From NCBI GenBank assembly GCA_029260265.1, contig JAJDDO010000024.1, positions 745,458 through 809,457 of the forward strand: 64,000 nt of DNA, written 5' to 3'. Positions within the stretch are counted from its first letter, which is position 1; every line of letters begins with the position of its first letter. The DNA comes from Phycisphaerales bacterium. GTDB taxonomy: Bacteria > Planctomycetota > Phycisphaerae > Phycisphaerales > UBA1924. The notes under the pieces were generated by a model. It was not told where the DNA came from, did not search any database, and was given only the letters and a program-made list of their open reading frames with translations. The translations under genes were made by a program, and so were the position numbers. Positions 5,688 through 14,087 of the stretch are shown here, one piece after another.

Positions 5688-5885
5688 ACCGTATCAATAC
5701 CCGAACAACATGATTGCAATTTCATCCAAAAACACCGGAATTCGGTATTTTCTGGCTTGTGTGCGAAAGGCCTTTCGCGTATTCTTGGTGTGAACCCATG
5801 CCTCGGCGTGGTGTGAACTGTCTTGCTCACCGGTTGAGATCCGGTGGATATTCCGTTTTTTCGTGAGAGTTTGAAGGAGAAAGAA

Positions 5886-6569
5886 ATGAACAAAGTATTG
5901 CTGACAACAGCCTTGCTCGCCGGCATCAGCGGCGTCGCGGGCGCAACCGTGTACTCGGACACAGTGGGCGATGTCGCTGCTGCGATCGGTGCTTCCAACT
6001 TGGACATCACGCAGGTCGAGATCACCGACGACGGCACCAACATCACATTTAGCATTCAGCTCAATGGTGATTTGGATGTTGATGTCTGGGGCAAGTACGC
6101 TCTTGGAATCAACAACGGTTCCGGCTTAGATGATGCGGGTAACCCTTGGGGCCGCAACATCGATTGGGGTTCTGGCCAAGAGATCACCCATTGGGTTGCA
6201 TCATGGGCGGACGATGGCGGTTCAGGCATCGGTGCTCAGGTTTGGAGCTACGACGGAGGCGCATGGAACGAAACCGGCTCCCTGTTCAGCACCGATGACA
6301 GCCAGCACGCGGCCGGCTTCCAGATTTTCACCATCTCTTTGGCTGATCTCGGGCTCAGTGGCGGCGATACCTTCAGCTTCGATGTCATCAGCACCGGTGG
6401 CGGCGCAGATCCAGGCGTTGATCACCTCAGCGTCGCGGGCGAAGCAACACCGGGCTGGGGCGATACCTCGGTCGGTGGTCAGTTCCTCAGTTACACCGTG
6501 ACCCCGACACCGGGCTCATTGGCACTGCTCGGGCTCGGCGGCCTCGTCGCGACACGCCGTCGTCGCTAA
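5886..6569 (+). CDS. Secreted PEP-CTERM-type protein
   Basis: Signal peptide; C-terminal TPTPGSLALLGLGGLVATRRRR; upstream AAGGAGAAAGAA ribosome-binding site. Confidence 0.8.
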   Translation: MNKVLLTTALLAGISGVAGATVYSDTVGDVAAAIGASNLDITQVEITDDGTNITFSIQLNGDLDVDVWGKYALGINNGSGLDDAGNPWGRNIDWGSGQEITHWVASWADDGGSGIGAQVWSYDGGAWNETGSLFSTDDSQHAAGFQIFTISLADLGLSGGDTFSFDVISTGGGADPGVDHLSVAGEATPGWGDTSVGGQFLSYTVTPTPGSLALLGLGGLVATRRRR

Positions 6570-6630: not shown

Positions 6631-7672
6631 AGTGATTCGGCGAACGCCCGGCGACCACGGCGTCGCGCCCGCCGGTGCGGACGATTCTCCGCATGAACTG
6701 CTGGTAGGCATGATCAAGCTCGGCGAGGGTGTACTGCGGGAGGTAGGCATGCAGAACTTCTGGGCCGATGCGACGGGTTCGTAAACGGCTCGAACTCCCT
6801 TCGCCCAATGCGGCGTCGATATGGTCATTGAGTGATGCCGATGCGCTATCTGTGAGCATCCGTTGAAGCCCCGCGCGGAATCGTCCGGCTTCGGCTTCAT
6901 AGAGAAAATGGACCAGCGCCCATGATTGGGCGTACCAGTTGAGAAGTTCGTCGCCGGTGGCGTTGCGGGCGATGAGGTCTTGGGGCCGCGTCGAGACCAG
7001 CGCGTGCAGCGAAATCAACGATCCAGCGCTAACGGCCTGGCGGAGCTGATCAAAGCGCTCGGTGTTTGCCCAGGGCATAAACCGCGGGCGATCGGGCGAA
7101 GCCAGATCCCACCGGAACCCCTCCATAAAACATGCGATGCCCTCGTCGAGCCAGACGGGCAGCGGGTCTTGCAACACCGAGTGGGCGTACTGATGCCAGC
7201 CTTCGTGCGCACAAATTATGAAAGTATCGCGTGGGCCGATGTTGTAGAACACGCCTCGATGCCCGGCGGCGAATCCGCCACGCTCGATGCGGAGGTAGAC
7301 GGATGCCTTGTCACCAAGCAGCGCGCGGGTGAGTTGCTCCCACTGGATCCGATTGCCCATGAGGTAAGTTTCGATCGGCTCATCGAGCTCGGGCAAGTTG
7401 GTGATCGCGTGCTGATAATGCACGACGGAGCGTTCGACGAAGGTTGGGAGTCGGCGGTTGATCAGCCGATCATTGGTGGTTGTGCGGACGATCGAGCTGG
7501 GCGTGAGGTAGATCCGCCCGGTGTTGCCTCGAAACGACCACGCCCCCTCCTCAGCGATAAACCGCGAAGCGTCACCGGTTGATGGTCGAAGCAGGGGCGG
7601 ATCAACCGTCTGCGTTTGGGCGCACCCCGCAAGGGTTCCGCCGATCAGCATGATCGCCACGATTCGGCTCAT
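6629..7672 (-). CDS. DUF1570-like lipoprotein with zincin-type motif
   Basis: Lipobox LAGCAQ; HEGWHQYAH (HExxH-like) followed by WLDEGIACFMEG. Confidence 0.7.
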   Translation of the reverse strand: MSRIVAIMLIGGTLAGCAQTQTVDPPLLRPSTGDASRFIAEEGAWSFRGNTGRIYLTPSSIVRTTTNDRLINRRLPTFVERSVVHYQHAITNLPELDEPIETYLMGNRIQWEQLTRALLGDKASVYLRIERGGFAAGHRGVFYNIGPRDTFIICAHEGWHQYAHSVLQDPLPVWLDEGIACFMEGFRWDLASPDRPRFMPWANTERFDQLRQAVSAGSLISLHALVSTRPQDLIARNATGDELLNWYAQSWALVHFLYEAEAGRFRAGLQRMLTDSASASLNDHIDAALGEGSSSRLRTRRIGPEVLHAYLPQYTLAELDHAYQQFMRRIVRTGGRDAVVAGRSPNH

Positions 7673-10600
7673 GCGAGCTTGTCCAACGCGGCTTTCGTCG
7701 CGTCGCGGTCCTTCACCAGCTCGGCGAGTTGATCGCGGGTCTGCTGGACCAAATGCGCCGGGGCCTTGTCGGTGTAACCCGGGTTCGACAGACGCCCCTC
7801 GATGCCCTTGATGGATTTATCGAGCCCGGCGAGTTCTTTTTCGAGCCGGTCACGCTCGACCGATGCGTCGACCGCGTCGGCGAGATCGGAAACATGGTGC
7901 TCGGCGGCTTCGAAGGTGAACGCGGCGGCGTTACCGATCGGGGCAGCGGTCGAGATTTCTTTGACACCCGCATTGGTCTCGATCAGGGGCGACCATCGCG
8001 CGACATCGTCGGCGACCGAACCGGAGGCATGCAGCACGATCTTCCGCTTGGGAAGCACCTTGTTGTGCGCACGGACCTCGCGGATCGTGGTGACGAGCGA
8101 CCGCATCCGGTCGAACGCTTCCTCGGCGACTTCATCGCGAAGCTCGTCGATCGGCTCGGGCCAACCGGATTGGCAGAGAGTATCCGTCGAGGTGGTCTTG
8201 GCAAAGTTGAACCCGGCGATCTCGCGCATCGGGATGGTGTCGAGCCGTTCGAAGATCGTCTCGGTGATGAACGGCGTGACCGGGTGCATCAGACGCAGGA
8301 TCGAATCGAGAACAATCCTCAGCACCGCCCGCTGACGATCGTCAGCGTCGACGGTGGGCTTGATCGATTCGAGGTACCAGTCGCAGAAGTCCCGCCAGAG
8401 CAGGTCGTAGATCGCGTCGGCGTAGTCCTTGAACTGGTACCTGCGCATCGCGGTGTTGACCTTGTTGGTCGCTTCAACGACGCGCGAGAGCATCCACCGG
8501 TCGCACAGGCTGAGCTCTTGCGGGTCGATCGGCATGCCGGGCTCGATCGGGTTCTTCTCGAGCATCGAGATGGCGAACTTGGAGGCATTCCAGAGCTTGT
8601 TGCACAGGTTGCGACCGAGGTCGAACTTGGGCGAGGTGTTCTTGCCGGTGGCTGCATCGTGCTCGACGGGCATGCGGACATCTTGGGTCTGCGTGGTCAT
8701 CTGGCAGAGGGTGAATCGCATCGCGTCGGCGCCGTGAGAGTCGATGATGTCGAGCGGGTCGACGCCGTTGCCCAGGGACTTGGACATCTTGCGTCCCTCG
8801 CCGTCCTGGATCATCGCGTGGATGAAAACATCCTTGAAGGGGGCGGGGCCGGGTTGATCTTCAGTAGAACGGGCTTCCAGCCCGTTGCTTTGGTTCTGAG
8901 ATGATATTGAGGAAGATGAAGAAACGGGCTGGAAGCCCGTTCTACCGGGGGAGTCTAAGAAGTACCGGTTGAACATCGCCATCCGCGAGACCCACAGCGT
9001 GATGATCTCGCGTGCGGTGGTGAGGACAGAGGTCGGGTTGAACGCTGCGAGCATGGACTCGAAGTCTTTGATGCCCGAGGATTCCTTGGCCGCATCGGCG
9101 TCGGGCCACCCCATCGTCGAGAGCGGCCAGAGCGCAGAGGAGAACCAAGTGTCGAGGACATCGGGGTCCCTGACGAAGCCGTCATTTTCGAGATCTGAAA
9201 TCACATTCTCGCCGACTGCTGCTGGGCTTAAGCAAACAAATTCAGTCTCGCCGTCATCTTGAATTGCTATTAGATCTTCCCAGAATGGCTCTTGTTTCCA
9301 TTTCACAAGTGCAGAATCCCCGGTAGCGTTAGATCGAATTTTTGGTTTACTCCACACCGGAATCCGATGCCCCCACCAGAGCTGGCGGGAGATGCACCAG
9401 TCGCGGAGGTTATCGTGCCAGGATTCGTAGGTTTTCGCGTAGCGCGATGGGTAGAACGACATGGTGCCGTCGGTACTCTCCCCGGTAGAACGGGCTTCCA
9501 GCCCGTTTCTTGATTGATTCGCTTCTTTCCGTGTCCACTCATATTCACTTGGCTGATCACACAATCCCCCCTTCACGGGATTGTTGAGCATGTAGTTCCA
9601 TTTCTCGCGGAACTCATCTTCATCCCGGACGATGCGATCAAAGTATTCGGCCTGCCAGAATGATCCAGAGTCGTTCCTGCTCCGATTGATCTCGTTGGCG
9701 GTGTAGCTCTTGATGCTGTGGATGATGTCTTGGAGCGGGTACCACTCGTCAGCGCCGATTTTGTTTGGCGTGATGAGGATGTGGACATGATCGGGCATGA
9801 CGGTCACAAGATGGACTGTTGCTCGCTCATTATTGAAATGGAAGCATGAATCGAGGACGAGCGAGCGTTCGTGCTCACTCATGTGTCCTTCTTTGATGCG
9901 GAAGGTAACGAAGTATGTGGAGCCTCCGAGTTGCCAGTGGGGGAGGTTTCGTGTGTGGATGGAGAGTTGGTTTGGGGTGGGGGAAGAGGGAGGGGAAACG
10001 GGCTGGAAGCCCGTTCTACCGGGAGAAGAGGGGGTGGATTCGGGCCAGGTTTCTAAGGAGGATTCTGTGCGTTGGTTTGGAACGAGGGCGCGCTGGGCGT
10101 TGCCTCGGAGTCTGTCGTCGGTGACCTTGCAGTACCATTGGTCGCTCAGGTACGGCTCGATCGCGGCGTGGGAGCGGTAGGAGTGCCCAACGGAGTGGGT
10201 ATGGGGCACGATCTTTTCGAGCAGCGATCCCTCCGTGCCTTCGGCGACTGTGCGGGCGTCGAACTCTTTGATGACGAGTTTGCGGGCGTCCTCGCGTGAC
10301 TTGCCGACGAAGATGTGCCCGTCGCCGATGTCCTCCCACCCGTGCTGGTCAGAGATGGACGCATCGGGAGCCATGATGTTGATGGCTTCGAGGTTGTGAC
10401 GCTGACCGATCATCCAGTCATTTGGATCGTGGGCCGGGGTGACCTTGAGGAACCCGGTGGACATCTCTGCCTTGGCGTCGCCCTCTTCGCCGCCGTACTT
10501 GACGGGCAGGACGACATAATCATCCTCGATGATGGGGATGACGCGCCCGATGACGGGCAGCTCGCAGAGGAACCCGCGGACCGCGGTGGCGCGGGGGTCC

Positions 10601-11466
10601 TTTGGATTCACCGCGACGGCGGTGTCGCCCATGTAGGTCTCGGGGCGGGTGGTGGCGACGGTGACCCAGGCTTGTTCATCCTCGGGGTGCTTTTCAGCGC
10701 CGGGGTACCCGCGCCGGGCGAGCTCGGACCAGGTGACCGGGTTGTGGTTGCCGGGCTCGGTCTCGTGGACGAGCGGGTAGCGGAGGTAGTAGAAGTTGCC
10801 CTGCACTTCTTCCATCTCGACCTCGTCGTCGGCGAGTGCGGTCTGGGTGACGGGGTCCCAGTTGACGAGGCGCTTGCCGCGCTCGATGAGCCCGTCTTTG
10901 AAGAGCTGGAAGAATGCTTCGCGGACAGCGCGGGCGCAGATGTCGTCCATGGTGAAGCGTTGGCGTTCGTAGTCGCACGAGCAGCCCATTTTTTTGAGCT
11001 GGTCGGTGATGCGTGCTTCGTATTCGTCTTTGAAGTCGAGGACGAGTTGGGTGAACTGTTCGCGGCCACTTCTTCCTTCAGCATCGAGCTCGCCGGCGAG
11101 TTCGCGTTTTTTGTAGTCGGCGATCCCGGGTTTGCCGGCTTCTTTGAGCTTTTTGTCGACCATGGTCTGGGTGGCGATGCCGGCATGGTCGGTGCCGGGC
11201 ATCCAGAGGGTCTCATAGCCCTTCATCCTGTGCGCACGGATGAGGATGTCCTGGATGGAGTTGTTGAGCGCGTGCCCGAGGTGGAGGGCGGCGGTGACAT
11301 TGGGCGGGGGGATGAGGATGGAGTAGGGTTGGGCGCTGCCATCGAGGACGCGGGCGGGATCGGCATGGAAAGCACCCGAGTCGAGCCATTTTTCCCAGAT
11401 GCGGGGTTCGTGATCGGCGGCGGTGTAGGCCTTGCTCATCGGGGTTTGGGTCGATTCGGTCGTCAT
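7669..11466 (-). CDS. valS: Valyl-tRNA synthetase carrying an in-frame RAYT insertion and an in-frame REP doublet
   Basis: ValRS blocks PPPNVTAALHLGHALNN, RDWCISRQLWWGHRIPVW, GRKMSKSLGNGVDP and C-terminal coiled coil; 1278-aa ORF interrupted twice by GRTGFQPV...NGLEARST segments. Confidence 0.95.
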   Translation of the reverse strand: MTTESTQTPMSKAYTAADHEPRIWEKWLDSGAFHADPARVLDGSAQPYSILIPPPNVTAALHLGHALNNSIQDILIRAHRMKGYETLWMPGTDHAGIATQTMVDKKLKEAGKPGIADYKKRELAGELDAEGRSGREQFTQLVLDFKDEYEARITDQLKKMGCSCDYERQRFTMDDICARAVREAFFQLFKDGLIERGKRLVNWDPVTQTALADDEVEMEEVQGNFYYLRYPLVHETEPGNHNPVTWSELARRGYPGAEKHPEDEQAWVTVATTRPETYMGDTAVAVNPKDPRATAVRGFLCELPVIGRVIPIIEDDYVVLPVKYGGEEGDAKAEMSTGFLKVTPAHDPNDWMIGQRHNLEAINIMAPDASISDQHGWEDIGDGHIFVGKSREDARKLVIKEFDARTVAEGTEGSLLEKIVPHTHSVGHSYRSHAAIEPYLSDQWYCKVTDDRLRGNAQRALVPNQRTESSLETWPESTPSSPGRTGFQPVSPPSSPTPNQLSIHTRNLPHWQLGGSTYFVTFRIKEGHMSEHERSLVLDSCFHFNNERATVHLVTVMPDHVHILITPNKIGADEWYPLQDIIHSIKSYTANEINRSRNDSGSFWQAEYFDRIVRDEDEFREKWNYMLNNPVKGGLCDQPSEYEWTRKEANQSRNGLEARSTGESTDGTMSFYPSRYAKTYESWHDNLRDWCISRQLWWGHRIPVWSKPKIRSNATGDSALVKWKQEPFWEDLIAIQDDGETEFVCLSPAAVGENVISDLENDGFVRDPDVLDTWFSSALWPLSTMGWPDADAAKESSGIKDFESMLAAFNPTSVLTTAREIITLWVSRMAMFNRYFLDSPGRTGFQPVSSSSSISSQNQSNGLEARSTEDQPGPAPFKDVFIHAMIQDGEGRKMSKSLGNGVDPLDIIDSHGADAMRFTLCQMTTQTQDVRMPVEHDAATGKNTSPKFDLGRNLCNKLWNASKFAISMLEKNPIEPGMPIDPQELSLCDRWMLSRVVEATNKVNTAMRRYQFKDYADAIYDLLWRDFCDWYLESIKPTVDADDRQRAVLRIVLDSILRLMHPVTPFITETIFERLDTIPMREIAGFNFAKTTSTDTLCQSGWPEPIDELRDEVAEEAFDRMRSLVTTIREVRAHNKVLPKRKIVLHASGSVADDVARWSPLIETNAGVKEISTAAPIGNAAAFTFEAAEHHVSDLADAVDASVERDRLEKELAGLDKSIKGIEGRLSNPGYTDKAPAHLVQQTRDQLAELVKDRDATKAALDKLA
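8864..8945. repeat. REP doublet (REPIN-like) inserted in frame within valS
   Basis: gtagaacgggcttccagcccgtt (8864-8886) and its exact reverse complement aacgggctggaagcccgttctac (8923-8945), 36-nt spacer. Confidence 0.93.
9484..10020 (-). mobile_element. REP-flanked RAYT element inserted within valS
   Basis: 23-bp REP arms at 9485-9507 and 9997-10019 in inverted orientation around a Y1/HUH transposase domain; 537 bp = 179 codons, in frame with valS. Confidence 0.92.
9509..9957 (-). CDS. REP-associated tyrosine transposase (RAYT, IS200/Y1-like) domain, translated only as part of the valS ORF
   Basis: HTRNLPHWQLGGSTYFVTFR; HUH motif HVHILI at 9772-9789; FWQAEYFDRIVRDEDEF; Tyr codon at 9592-9594 in NYMLNNPVKGGL. 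Confidence 0.9.
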
Positions 11467-11546
11467 TTGGTTGATCCTTGCACGGGGTGCGTGAAATCGG
11501 GGCAATTCGTGGCTTTGGAGTGTACGCGGGGTCGATATCCTTGTGC

Positions 11547-12599
11547 ATGGATAGATCTACATTCCGACAGAACAAGATCGGTGTTTTCTCTGCTCGTTCG
11601 GGATCGGCGAGGGCTGCGGGGGTGGGGCTCGCGGCGGTCGCGGTGTTGGGCGTTGCGATCGCGGGGTACGCGATTTACACGCTCGCGCAGCCGAAGCAGG
11701 CAGAGCCGATCGTCGAGGATCCGGGTGAGAGCGGGATCGCGCCGACGCAGACGATCGAGGGCGTGCTCGCGAGTGTGCAATCGTTTGTGCGTGATAAGGA
11801 ATACACAAGGGCGCAGGCGGTGCTCGAATCGGCGGTGCTTCAGTTCCCGGGCGATCAGGATCTTCGCGTGGCGATGGGGGATCTGATGATGCTCGACGGG
11901 CAGAACGCGGCGGCGTATGACCAGTATGTTGCGGCGATCGAGATCGGACCAACAAACGGGGATATGGAGTTCACCGCAGGGACCCTTGCCAACACGATTG
12001 GGAATCGAACGCTCGCGGTGCAGCATTACAAGCAGGCGGTGAAGATGGATCCGACGCGCCCGGATTACATGACCTACTTGGCGGTGCTCCAGATGAACCT
12101 GAATCAGCTCGATGATGCCAAAGCGAATCTGGCTCTGGCGTCGCAGCTTGCGCCCGATGATGCGCAGATCTGGGCGATCCGGGCGAGCCTGGCGTTGCGT
12201 GAGAACACCTTGGGGATCGCGCAGCTGCATATAGATCGGGCACGCGAGTTGGAGCCCCGCGAGCCAAAGTGGATCCTCTCGGAAGCGAAGATCCGAAAAC
12301 GGGGCGGCGAGGTGGATGTGGCGATCAACCTGTTGACGGGATTACCCGAGGAGATGCTCTCAACGGATGAGACACTCGGGCTTCTTGCGGAGTGCTATGG
12401 GCTGGTCGGGCGGCCCGGTGATGCGGCATCGAGGTACATTGATGCGGCGCAGGCGGATGAAAAGAACGCGGGATTGGCGTTTGAAGCCGCGCTCTGGTTG
12501 GAGCGGGCGGGCGACAGGGAGAACGCGCTCAAATGGGGTCGGCGTGCGCGTGATCTCGGGCATCCACGCGCGGGAGAATGGACCGAATCGCTGCCCTGA
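11547..12599 (+). CDS. TPR-repeat protein with N-terminal TM
   Basis: TM segment followed by TPR-like repeats (AAYDQYVAAIEIGP, AVQHYKQAVKMDPTRPDY). Confidence 0.8.
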   Translation: MDRSTFRQNKIGVFSARSGSARAAGVGLAAVAVLGVAIAGYAIYTLAQPKQAEPIVEDPGESGIAPTQTIEGVLASVQSFVRDKEYTRAQAVLESAVLQFPGDQDLRVAMGDLMMLDGQNAAAYDQYVAAIEIGPTNGDMEFTAGTLANTIGNRTLAVQHYKQAVKMDPTRPDYMTYLAVLQMNLNQLDDAKANLALASQLAPDDAQIWAIRASLALRENTLGIAQLHIDRARELEPREPKWILSEAKIRKRGGEVDVAINLLTGLPEEMLSTDETLGLLAECYGLVGRPGDAASRYIDAAQADEKNAGLAFEAALWLERAGDRENALKWGRRARDLGHPRAGEWTESLP

Positions 12600-12616
12600 T
12601 GCGAACTCGATACGGA

Positions 12617-12913
12617 TTAGCTGACCAGACCGTCTTCATCCTCATTCTCTTCGTCGCTCTCATCGTACTCGATGATCGAATCGCTCATTCGGTTGGCGGA
12701 CTCTGCCCACGGATCGACCGGGTCGGGCTCTGGTGCCCGAGACTCGATCTGGCGTGCGCTGCGGGTCCGGCGGAGGACAATGATGAGCAGCATCGAGAAC
12801 ACCAAGATGAGCCCGAGGATCGAGAGCATGGCGAGCAGGGACCATCCCTCGCGGGCGGCGATGTCTCGCTCGGGCGATTGGGTGATCTGGATGATGGGGA
12901 TCGGCAGGTTCAT
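12617..12913 (-). CDS. Small single-TM protein with acidic tail
   Basis: ORF with GWSLLAMLSILGLILVFSMLLIIVL and acidic C-terminus. Confidence 0.55.
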   Translation of the reverse strand: MNLPIPIIQITQSPERDIAAREGWSLLAMLSILGLILVFSMLLIIVLRRTRSARQIESRAPEPDPVDPWAESANRMSDSIIEYDESDEENEDEDGLVS

Positions 12914-12976
12914 CAGGGGATGATACGGGCGAAAGCGTCGGATGGATGCTACAGTTGTGCCCGAACTGGAGGACCG

Positions 12977-14087
12977 ATGCATCTTGAAGCACACCAGAAT
13001 GTGATTAACGACTTAGAGGCGCGGATTGTAACGATCCGTGACTCTCTTTGACTACGACAACAAGATAAACCGGCTCAAGGAGCTCGAAGAACGGATGGGG
13101 GCGATGGATTTCTGGGATAACCAGGAGGCTGCCCAAGAAACCGTCGGCGAGCTCAAACGGATCAAGGTCCAGATCTCGCCGATCAAGCAGGCATCGGAAG
13201 ATTTCGAGGATGCCAAGCTGGCGTACGAGATGTCACGCGAAGAGGGCGACACCGATCTGCTCAAAGAGGCTGACGGGCAGCTCTACAAGATGCTCGCGCG
13301 GATGGACAAGATCGAGATCCAGTCGCTGTTGAGCGGCAAGCATGACACGCGGGATTGCTTCTTTACGATCTCCGCGGGCGATGGCGGTACTGAGGCGAAT
13401 GATTGGTGCGAGATGCTTTTTCGCATGTACCTGTATTTCTTCGAGAACCAGGGATGGAAGATCGAGGAGGTCGAGAAATCGCACGGGTCCGAGGTCGGGC
13501 TTGATTCGGTGACGCTGCATGTGCAGGGTGACTTCGCGTTTGGGTATCTCTCTTGCGAGCGTGGGACGCATCGGCTTGCGCGGGTATCGCCGTTCAACTC
13601 GCAGGGAAAACGCCAAACAAGCTTTGCGACCGTTGAGGTGGTGCCCGAGTTCGAGGAACGCGATGTGGTGATCCCGGATGCTGATCTCGAGATCCAGGCG
13701 TTCGCGCGTTCGAGCGGCCCGGGCGGGCAGAATGTGAACAAGGTTGCTTCCGCGGTCCGTCTTGTGCATAAGCCCACGGGGATCATGATCCTTGCGTCCA
13801 CGCATCGTGAGCAGCAGCAGAATCGTCGGCAGGCGATGACGATCTTGATGGCCAAGCTCGAGCAGCTCGAGGAAGATCGGCGGGCGGCGGAGATCGCCGA
13901 AGCGGCGGGGGGCAAGCTCGAGCATCGCGGGTGGGGCGCGCAGATCCGCAGCTATGTGCTCTACGACAATCGTGTGAAAGACCACCGGACGAGTGTTGAA
14001 GGCAACCCGACCAATGTGCTCGACCGAGGCGAGCTCGAGCCATTTATTGACGCAGAGTTGAAGCGCCGGCGTGCAGAACGGGGATGA
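12977..14087 (+). CDS. prfB: Peptide chain release factor 2, +1 programmed frameshift (12977-13048 joined to 13050-14087)
   Basis: GGQ motif RSSGPGGQNVNKV; 24-codon leader ORF ends CTT TGA C at 13046-13052 and continues in the +1 frame as DYDNKINRLKELEERM. Confidence 0.94.

Follow-up and report, generated by a model that had tools for sequence, protein, structure and literature searches.

Within the window, i.e., the whole stretch of 64,000 nucleotides analyzed here, the gene for valyl-tRNA synthetase (ValRS) contains a RAYT, a transposase of the Y1/HUH type, that is enclosed by two inverted REP sequences and lies in the same reading frame as the synthetase. The following features were assigned:

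7669-11505, minus strand: valS, valyl-tRNA synthetase with internal RAYT (ORF, Pfam, catalytic motifs)
11505 (TTG) or, more likely, 11466 (ATG), minus strand: start of valS
11272-11283, minus strand: HLGH motif of ValRS, aa 75, intact
9995-10023, minus strand: 5' REP arm, CCCGGTAGAACGGGCTTCCAGCCCGTTTC in coding direction, GTAG-tagged, read as PGRTGFQPVS
9481-10023, minus strand: inserted REP-RAYT-REP cassette, in frame, delimited by its inverted arms and by the empty site in congeners
9526-9951, minus strand: core domain of the RAYT (Y1/HUH transposase), ValRS aa 519-660
9781-9789, minus strand: HUH motif HVH, aa 573-575, invariant in 56 aligned RAYTs
9592-9594, minus strand: candidate catalytic Tyr, aa 638, in NYMLNNP, invariant in 56 aligned RAYTs
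9481-9509, minus strand: 3' REP arm, exactly inverse to the 5' arm, reads RNGLEARSTG
8864-8945, minus strand: second in-frame REP pair of the same REP family (REPIN without RAYT) in another valS loop
8776-8790, minus strand: KMSKS motif of ValRS, aa 906, intact

All 1278 codons of the valS frame are open. Pfam recognized tRNA-synt_1, Anticodon_1 and Val_tRNA-synt_C together with an internal Y1_Tnp domain above the curated cut-off, and ValRS is otherwise full, with anticodon-binding and C-terminal arm domains present. An earlier note, made from the letters of this DNA, had described a complete RAYT in frame within valS, and the open frame and the Y1_Tnp match confirm this. The same note had given arms of 23 bp and a segment of 537 bp (179 codons); the arms are in fact a perfect inverted match of 29 bp and the cassette therefore measures 543 bp, or 181 codons. 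It sits in the loop by which the chain passes from the editing domain back to the catalytic core, at a point that in the alignment immediately precedes residue 377 of Thermus ValRS (1gax), and no target-site consensus was evident by eye in the listed flanks of the arms. The second REP pair has its arms at 8864-8890 and 8919-8945 (minus strand). The REP core matches the window four times vs. 0.06 times expected, and all four matches fall within valS; cassette arms and second pair alike are palindromes lying in frame in a coding gene, as is characteristic of Rickettsia palindromic elements.

The assembly of the window genome consists of 41 contigs and is 93% complete, which gives some room to the idea of an assembly artefact or of a pseudogene with an intact valS elsewhere. 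A search for a second valS, which the earlier note had proposed, returned this gene as the sole copy in the genome, ruling out the pseudogene. Artefact and chance are excluded because the same architecture recurs in dozens of independent genomes, some of them represented by one contig (including G069, G095 and G101), and the probability left to an artefact or pseudogene is practically nil.

Elsewhere in the window, prfB (RF2; 12578-13051 and 13038-14087, plus strand) shows a programmed +1 frameshift of the classical, ordinary kind: its first frame ends with ARIVTIRDSL at CTT TGA C and the next frame continues with DYDNK. The C-terminus (TPTPGSLALLGLGGLVATRRRR) of a protein encoded at 5844-6569 (plus strand) looks like a sorting signal of the PEP-CTERM type.

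The inserted domain combines the Y1/HUH fold, the HUH motif and a single catalytic Tyr with flanking inverted REPs carrying a GTAG-type tag and with cognate REPs/REPINs dispersed over 17 sites in its own genome, all of which characterize RAYTs (TnpA_REP). It matches TnpA_REP 4er8 at profile level (E = 1.1e-14), its AlphaFold model is confident (mean pLDDT 86, core mostly >94), and the best PDB match of this predicted structure is a RAYT bound to a REP hairpin; a model of the whole ValRS-RAYT chimera was uninformative (pLDDT 49) and left unused. The usual layout of an independent gene with its own start and stop, typical of RAYTs and unneeded for membership by homology, is not found here, as the frame reads through both REPs into ValRS. 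Neither is the insert of the IS200/IS605 kind, which has IS-type ends and often tnpB: its ends are REPs and 543 bp are too small for tnpB. The window genome encodes two Y1 transposases, the nested RAYT and a distant stand-alone RAYT on another contig whose surroundings, to about 1.2 kb, lack REPs of this kind.

In the valS gene of the window, neither the 45 codons ahead of the RAYT core nor its first 8 codons include an in-frame ATG, GTG or TTG, ruling out an own RAYT start, and a usable RAYT start codon is likewise absent in G000, G016, G001, G014, G013 and G148. By ordinary initiation rules, the RAYT can thus be produced only as part of ValRS, and that of the window apparently is made only as a ValRS domain, which would entail translation of the full fusion. 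In 37 of 69 nested copies elsewhere an in-frame ATG lies nearby, and these RAYTs may also be produced separately. As far as the sequence tells, the RAYT domain stays in mature ValRS. That the segment is instead removed before the protein works, by intein-like splicing, as an intron or through a bypass aided by the 29-bp arms, appears extremely improbable: base pairing of the two arms in the mRNA is conceivable, but Pfam shows synthetase domains and Y1_Tnp only, with no splicing (Hint) domain, so that the nested RAYT is not an intein, and in all 45 ValRS cases collected (see below) the insert keeps the frame and lacks a stop, which would be needless if it were cut from the RNA.

Sixty-one close relatives were sampled, in 48 of which the ValRS loop was readable. 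A RAYT fills it in 17 of these 48, while the remainder are empty or contain short fillers. The genus of the window holds both filled and empty valS sites, with a clean empty site in 11-12 congeners (named are G002-G007, G010, G012, G017, G019 and G020), in which the loop is short, e.g., KMVADDT. G012 had been considered as a shortened ValRS, a view rejected in favor of an N-gap with the site empty. These empty sites, for which the earlier note had suggested a search, support its view that the RAYT and two REPs entered the loop as a unit with the frame kept.

In an order-wide sample of 301 genomes, two RAYT profiles find about 43 genomes with a ValRS insert. The distinct insertions in ValRS number 45 across the order, and all 41 with both flanks readable lie in this loop. 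Named relatives with a ValRS insert belong to the Phycisphaerales, e.g., JAESRA010000119.1 and DEXG01000008.1. At least two types can be told apart among the nested RAYTs; they are clearly dissimilar and have REP arms of their own, and the unrelated REPs at the loop read TGFQPV...GLEARST, TGVPPV...RRDACAT or NEPRPSGSG...PLPHGRGS. Across the five host genes considered for the first type, inverted arms surround 53 of 55 copies; in the second type, every one of the 16 copies has them. Anatomy and recurrence of the nested RAYT are firm. Unit insertion into the loop, as interpreted in the earlier note, holds; the account is incomplete as one event, with the loop filled repeatedly by dissimilar RAYTs and other core enzymes invaded too.

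Some valS loops hold other material. Those of G032 (L063) and G033 (L050) contain bare REP/REPIN translations (GGTGFQPVPNGLKARST; GGTGVPPV) and no RAYT, which either arose by insertion of a REPIN or were left behind by a RAYT since lost, and those of G030 (L065) and G047 (L069) contain in-frame short-repeat expansions (EAPARSAEAPTR; TSRAREEAGSASQ), possibly translated tandem REP-like copies.

Beyond ValRS, RAYTs lie in frame in LeuRS, RdgB, MiaA and Kbl, identified by conserved motifs, as well as in PurH, IleRS, AlaRS, ThrRS, RecG, PriA and DNA methylases, identified by Pfam. Their taxa, from the order sample and a scan of named genomes, are Planctomycetota and Verrucomicrobia. About ten RAYTs were found in LeuRS, mostly at one site in the editing domain, and 12 in RdgB, all at one site. 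About 51 of 61 first-type matches in the order sample are nested in conserved enzymes, a share that is indicative only, given that the search profile held ValRS flanks and nine candidates were scored per genome. The idea that stand-alone copies are decayed was dropped because the stops counted are often natural and lie before the 3' REP, which is within the search profile. In other planctomycete orders, RAYTs reside inside long DNA-methylase-like proteins (RHGHPSTLHLWWARRPLAA...; L297 in G663 and L284 in G369, host assigned by eye), and nesting is therefore not limited to housekeeping genes. At L244, again judged by eye, a RAYT lies in frame in the apparent C-terminal part of a cobalamin-dependent methionine synthase.

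Counted with up to two mismatches to the arms, matching REPs number 17, 13, 52 and 26 in the four congeners whose valS carries this RAYT; among the congeners with the site empty, nine have none and two have two each (Mann-Whitney p = 0.0007). The dispersed REPs of G014 share the GTGGGACGGG variant of that genome's own valS arms. This distribution fits a nested RAYT that would act on REPs in trans. G015 has 23 of these REPs though its valS RAYT differs, a second REP family reaches high numbers in G013 and G016, which have no RAYT to match it, and for the second RAYT type the corresponding test gave no specific link; the abundance of REPs is in part a property of the genome as a whole.

On the ValRS tree (74 rows), presence and absence of the RAYT require 24 changes, gains and losses undistinguished, at least 16 of which are forced by well-supported branches; the mean after shuffling is 23.8. 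On the RAYT tree (116 rows), where many forks are unsupported, the host-gene label requires 22 changes vs. 67.7 after shuffling. RAYT lineages are therefore faithful to their host gene and not to the species lineage. Occupation of the same site in different hosts, patchiness on the host tree and the existence of empty sites, all three observed here, are hallmarks of homing elements. Among G000, G016 and G001, dN/dS of the nested RAYT is 0.09-0.14, similar to ValRS, and values around 0.1 indicate strong purifying selection on the codons of the RAYT.

These results bear on whether the RAYT is simply tolerated, i.e., whether occasional REP-RAYT units land in a permissive loop and remain there inert, kept open only via selection on ValRS. 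The empty loop does vary widely in length and content and holds bare REPs in G032 and G033, REPs alone in frame in proteins are already known (PMC3733652), and the nested RAYT of G023 has lost its Tyr, from which it follows that activity of nested RAYTs is not universal. We nevertheless regard neutral tolerance as unlikely, since RAYT codons are constrained at least as much as those of ValRS, HUH motif and Tyr do not vary among the 56 aligned sequences and RAYT lineages track the host gene.

The same purifying selection could also reflect domestication, with the RAYT performing a function that benefits the host, either within ValRS or more broadly (handling of tRNA or ssDNA, maintenance of REPs). 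Domestication has been proposed for RAYTs in other contexts, and pairing with aminoacyl-tRNA synthetases and genome-maintenance enzymes is a repeated one here. Such a role is quite improbable in view of empty sites in close relatives, occupation of the same loop by unrelated RAYT types and a turnover as patchy as random, unlike that of a useful domain.

With regard to the route of spread, the RAYT of G001 is more alike to those of G000 and G016 than is the host gene. Synonymous differences among the three amount to 0.46-0.50 for the RAYT vs. 0.56-0.70 for ValRS, and identity at fourfold sites between G001 and the other two is 0.49-0.59 in the insert vs. 0.14-0.48 in the upstream flank, with a sharp left boundary. 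The greater likeness of the RAYT together with the diverged upstream flank points more to horizontal transfer of the unit than to vertical inheritance alone, subject to the small number of sites and possible mosaicism of valS, and we infer spread by HUH-mediated insertion. Homologous recombination of whole valS alleles would replace only this route and is compatible with the anatomy described above. Gene and site are the same throughout, valS genes appear mosaic and similarity in the downstream flank is mixed; still, the sharp boundary of an insert more alike than its upstream flank, and the inability of one allele to supply unrelated RAYT types at one site, make allele exchange distinctly unlikely.

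The reading that we consider probable is that of a selfish REP-RAYT unit that is not spliced and would persist, much like an intein, in frame inside essential enzyme genes. A REP-RAYT-REP unit would insert in frame into the permissive surface loop of ValRS, and its RAYT would be translated as an internal domain of this essential enzyme. As the unit has no start or stop of its own, a nonsense or frameshift mutation within it would kill ValRS, and nesting would thereby give the unit constant expression and shelter from decay. RAYT lineages are specialized for a single gene and site of the host (ValRS, LeuRS, RdgB, AlaRS, ThrRS, PurH), and site specificity, patchy occurrence and purifying selection together form the pattern of a homing element like inteins, minus splicing. 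The nested RAYT is predicted to be catalytically active, and the fused domain probably still acts on the cognate REPs of its genome. More tentatively, and with slightly less than even confidence, these proteins may represent a new class of homing element that does without splicing: REP-flanked HUH transposases would invade fixed positions of essential enzymes, be produced solely as a domain of the host protein, stay active on ssDNA from inside it and move from one species to another by targeting empty sites.

The findings suggest a mobile element that endures by residing in genes indispensable to the cell. Nesting in essential genes without own start and stop offers a concrete, testable answer to how RAYTs and their REP populations last so long in bacterial genomes. 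ValRS, LeuRS and RdgB also exemplify core enzymes into which an entire foreign catalytic domain has been taken up repeatedly, at a surface loop. In the literature covered, which excludes subscription papers and preprints, we found no paper on a RAYT nested in a housekeeping gene. Unexpectedly long family proteins have been discarded as fusions or annotation errors (PMC6006769), and nested proteins may have been lost from earlier surveys through filters of this kind.

Among known systems, REPtrons, i.e., RAYT/TnpA_REP with flanking REPs, share the HUH-Tyr domain, inverted arms tagged GTAG or GTGG and REPINs elsewhere in the genome, but are described as stand-alone, whereas the nested RAYT has no start or stop of its own, sits inside an essential enzyme, has many hosts and reuses one site. 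IS200/IS605 TnpA has the same nuclease fold and presumably the same ssDNA chemistry; the nested RAYT differs by REP arms in place of IS ends and by the lack of TnpB in the insert. In TnpA_Y1 subclass 2.4, REPs are inserted in frame in tnpA (PMC6006769), which likewise preserves the frame, with the nesting reversed. REPs within genes, those of tRNA synthetases among them, and Rickettsia palindromic elements have been described (PMC3733652); like the cassette, they are selfish palindromic DNA that lies in frame in functional proteins. The Rickettsia elements are non-autonomous repeats of 20-82 aa without transposase, whereas the nested cassette carries a whole one. Inteins and homing introns, finally, share with the nested RAYT the conserved sites of essential genes, an internal nuclease, site-specific lineages and a patchy distribution; the nuclease here is of the HUH/Y1 type instead of a homing endonuclease and a splicing domain is lacking, so that the selfish strategy proposed would resemble that of inteins while needing no splicing.
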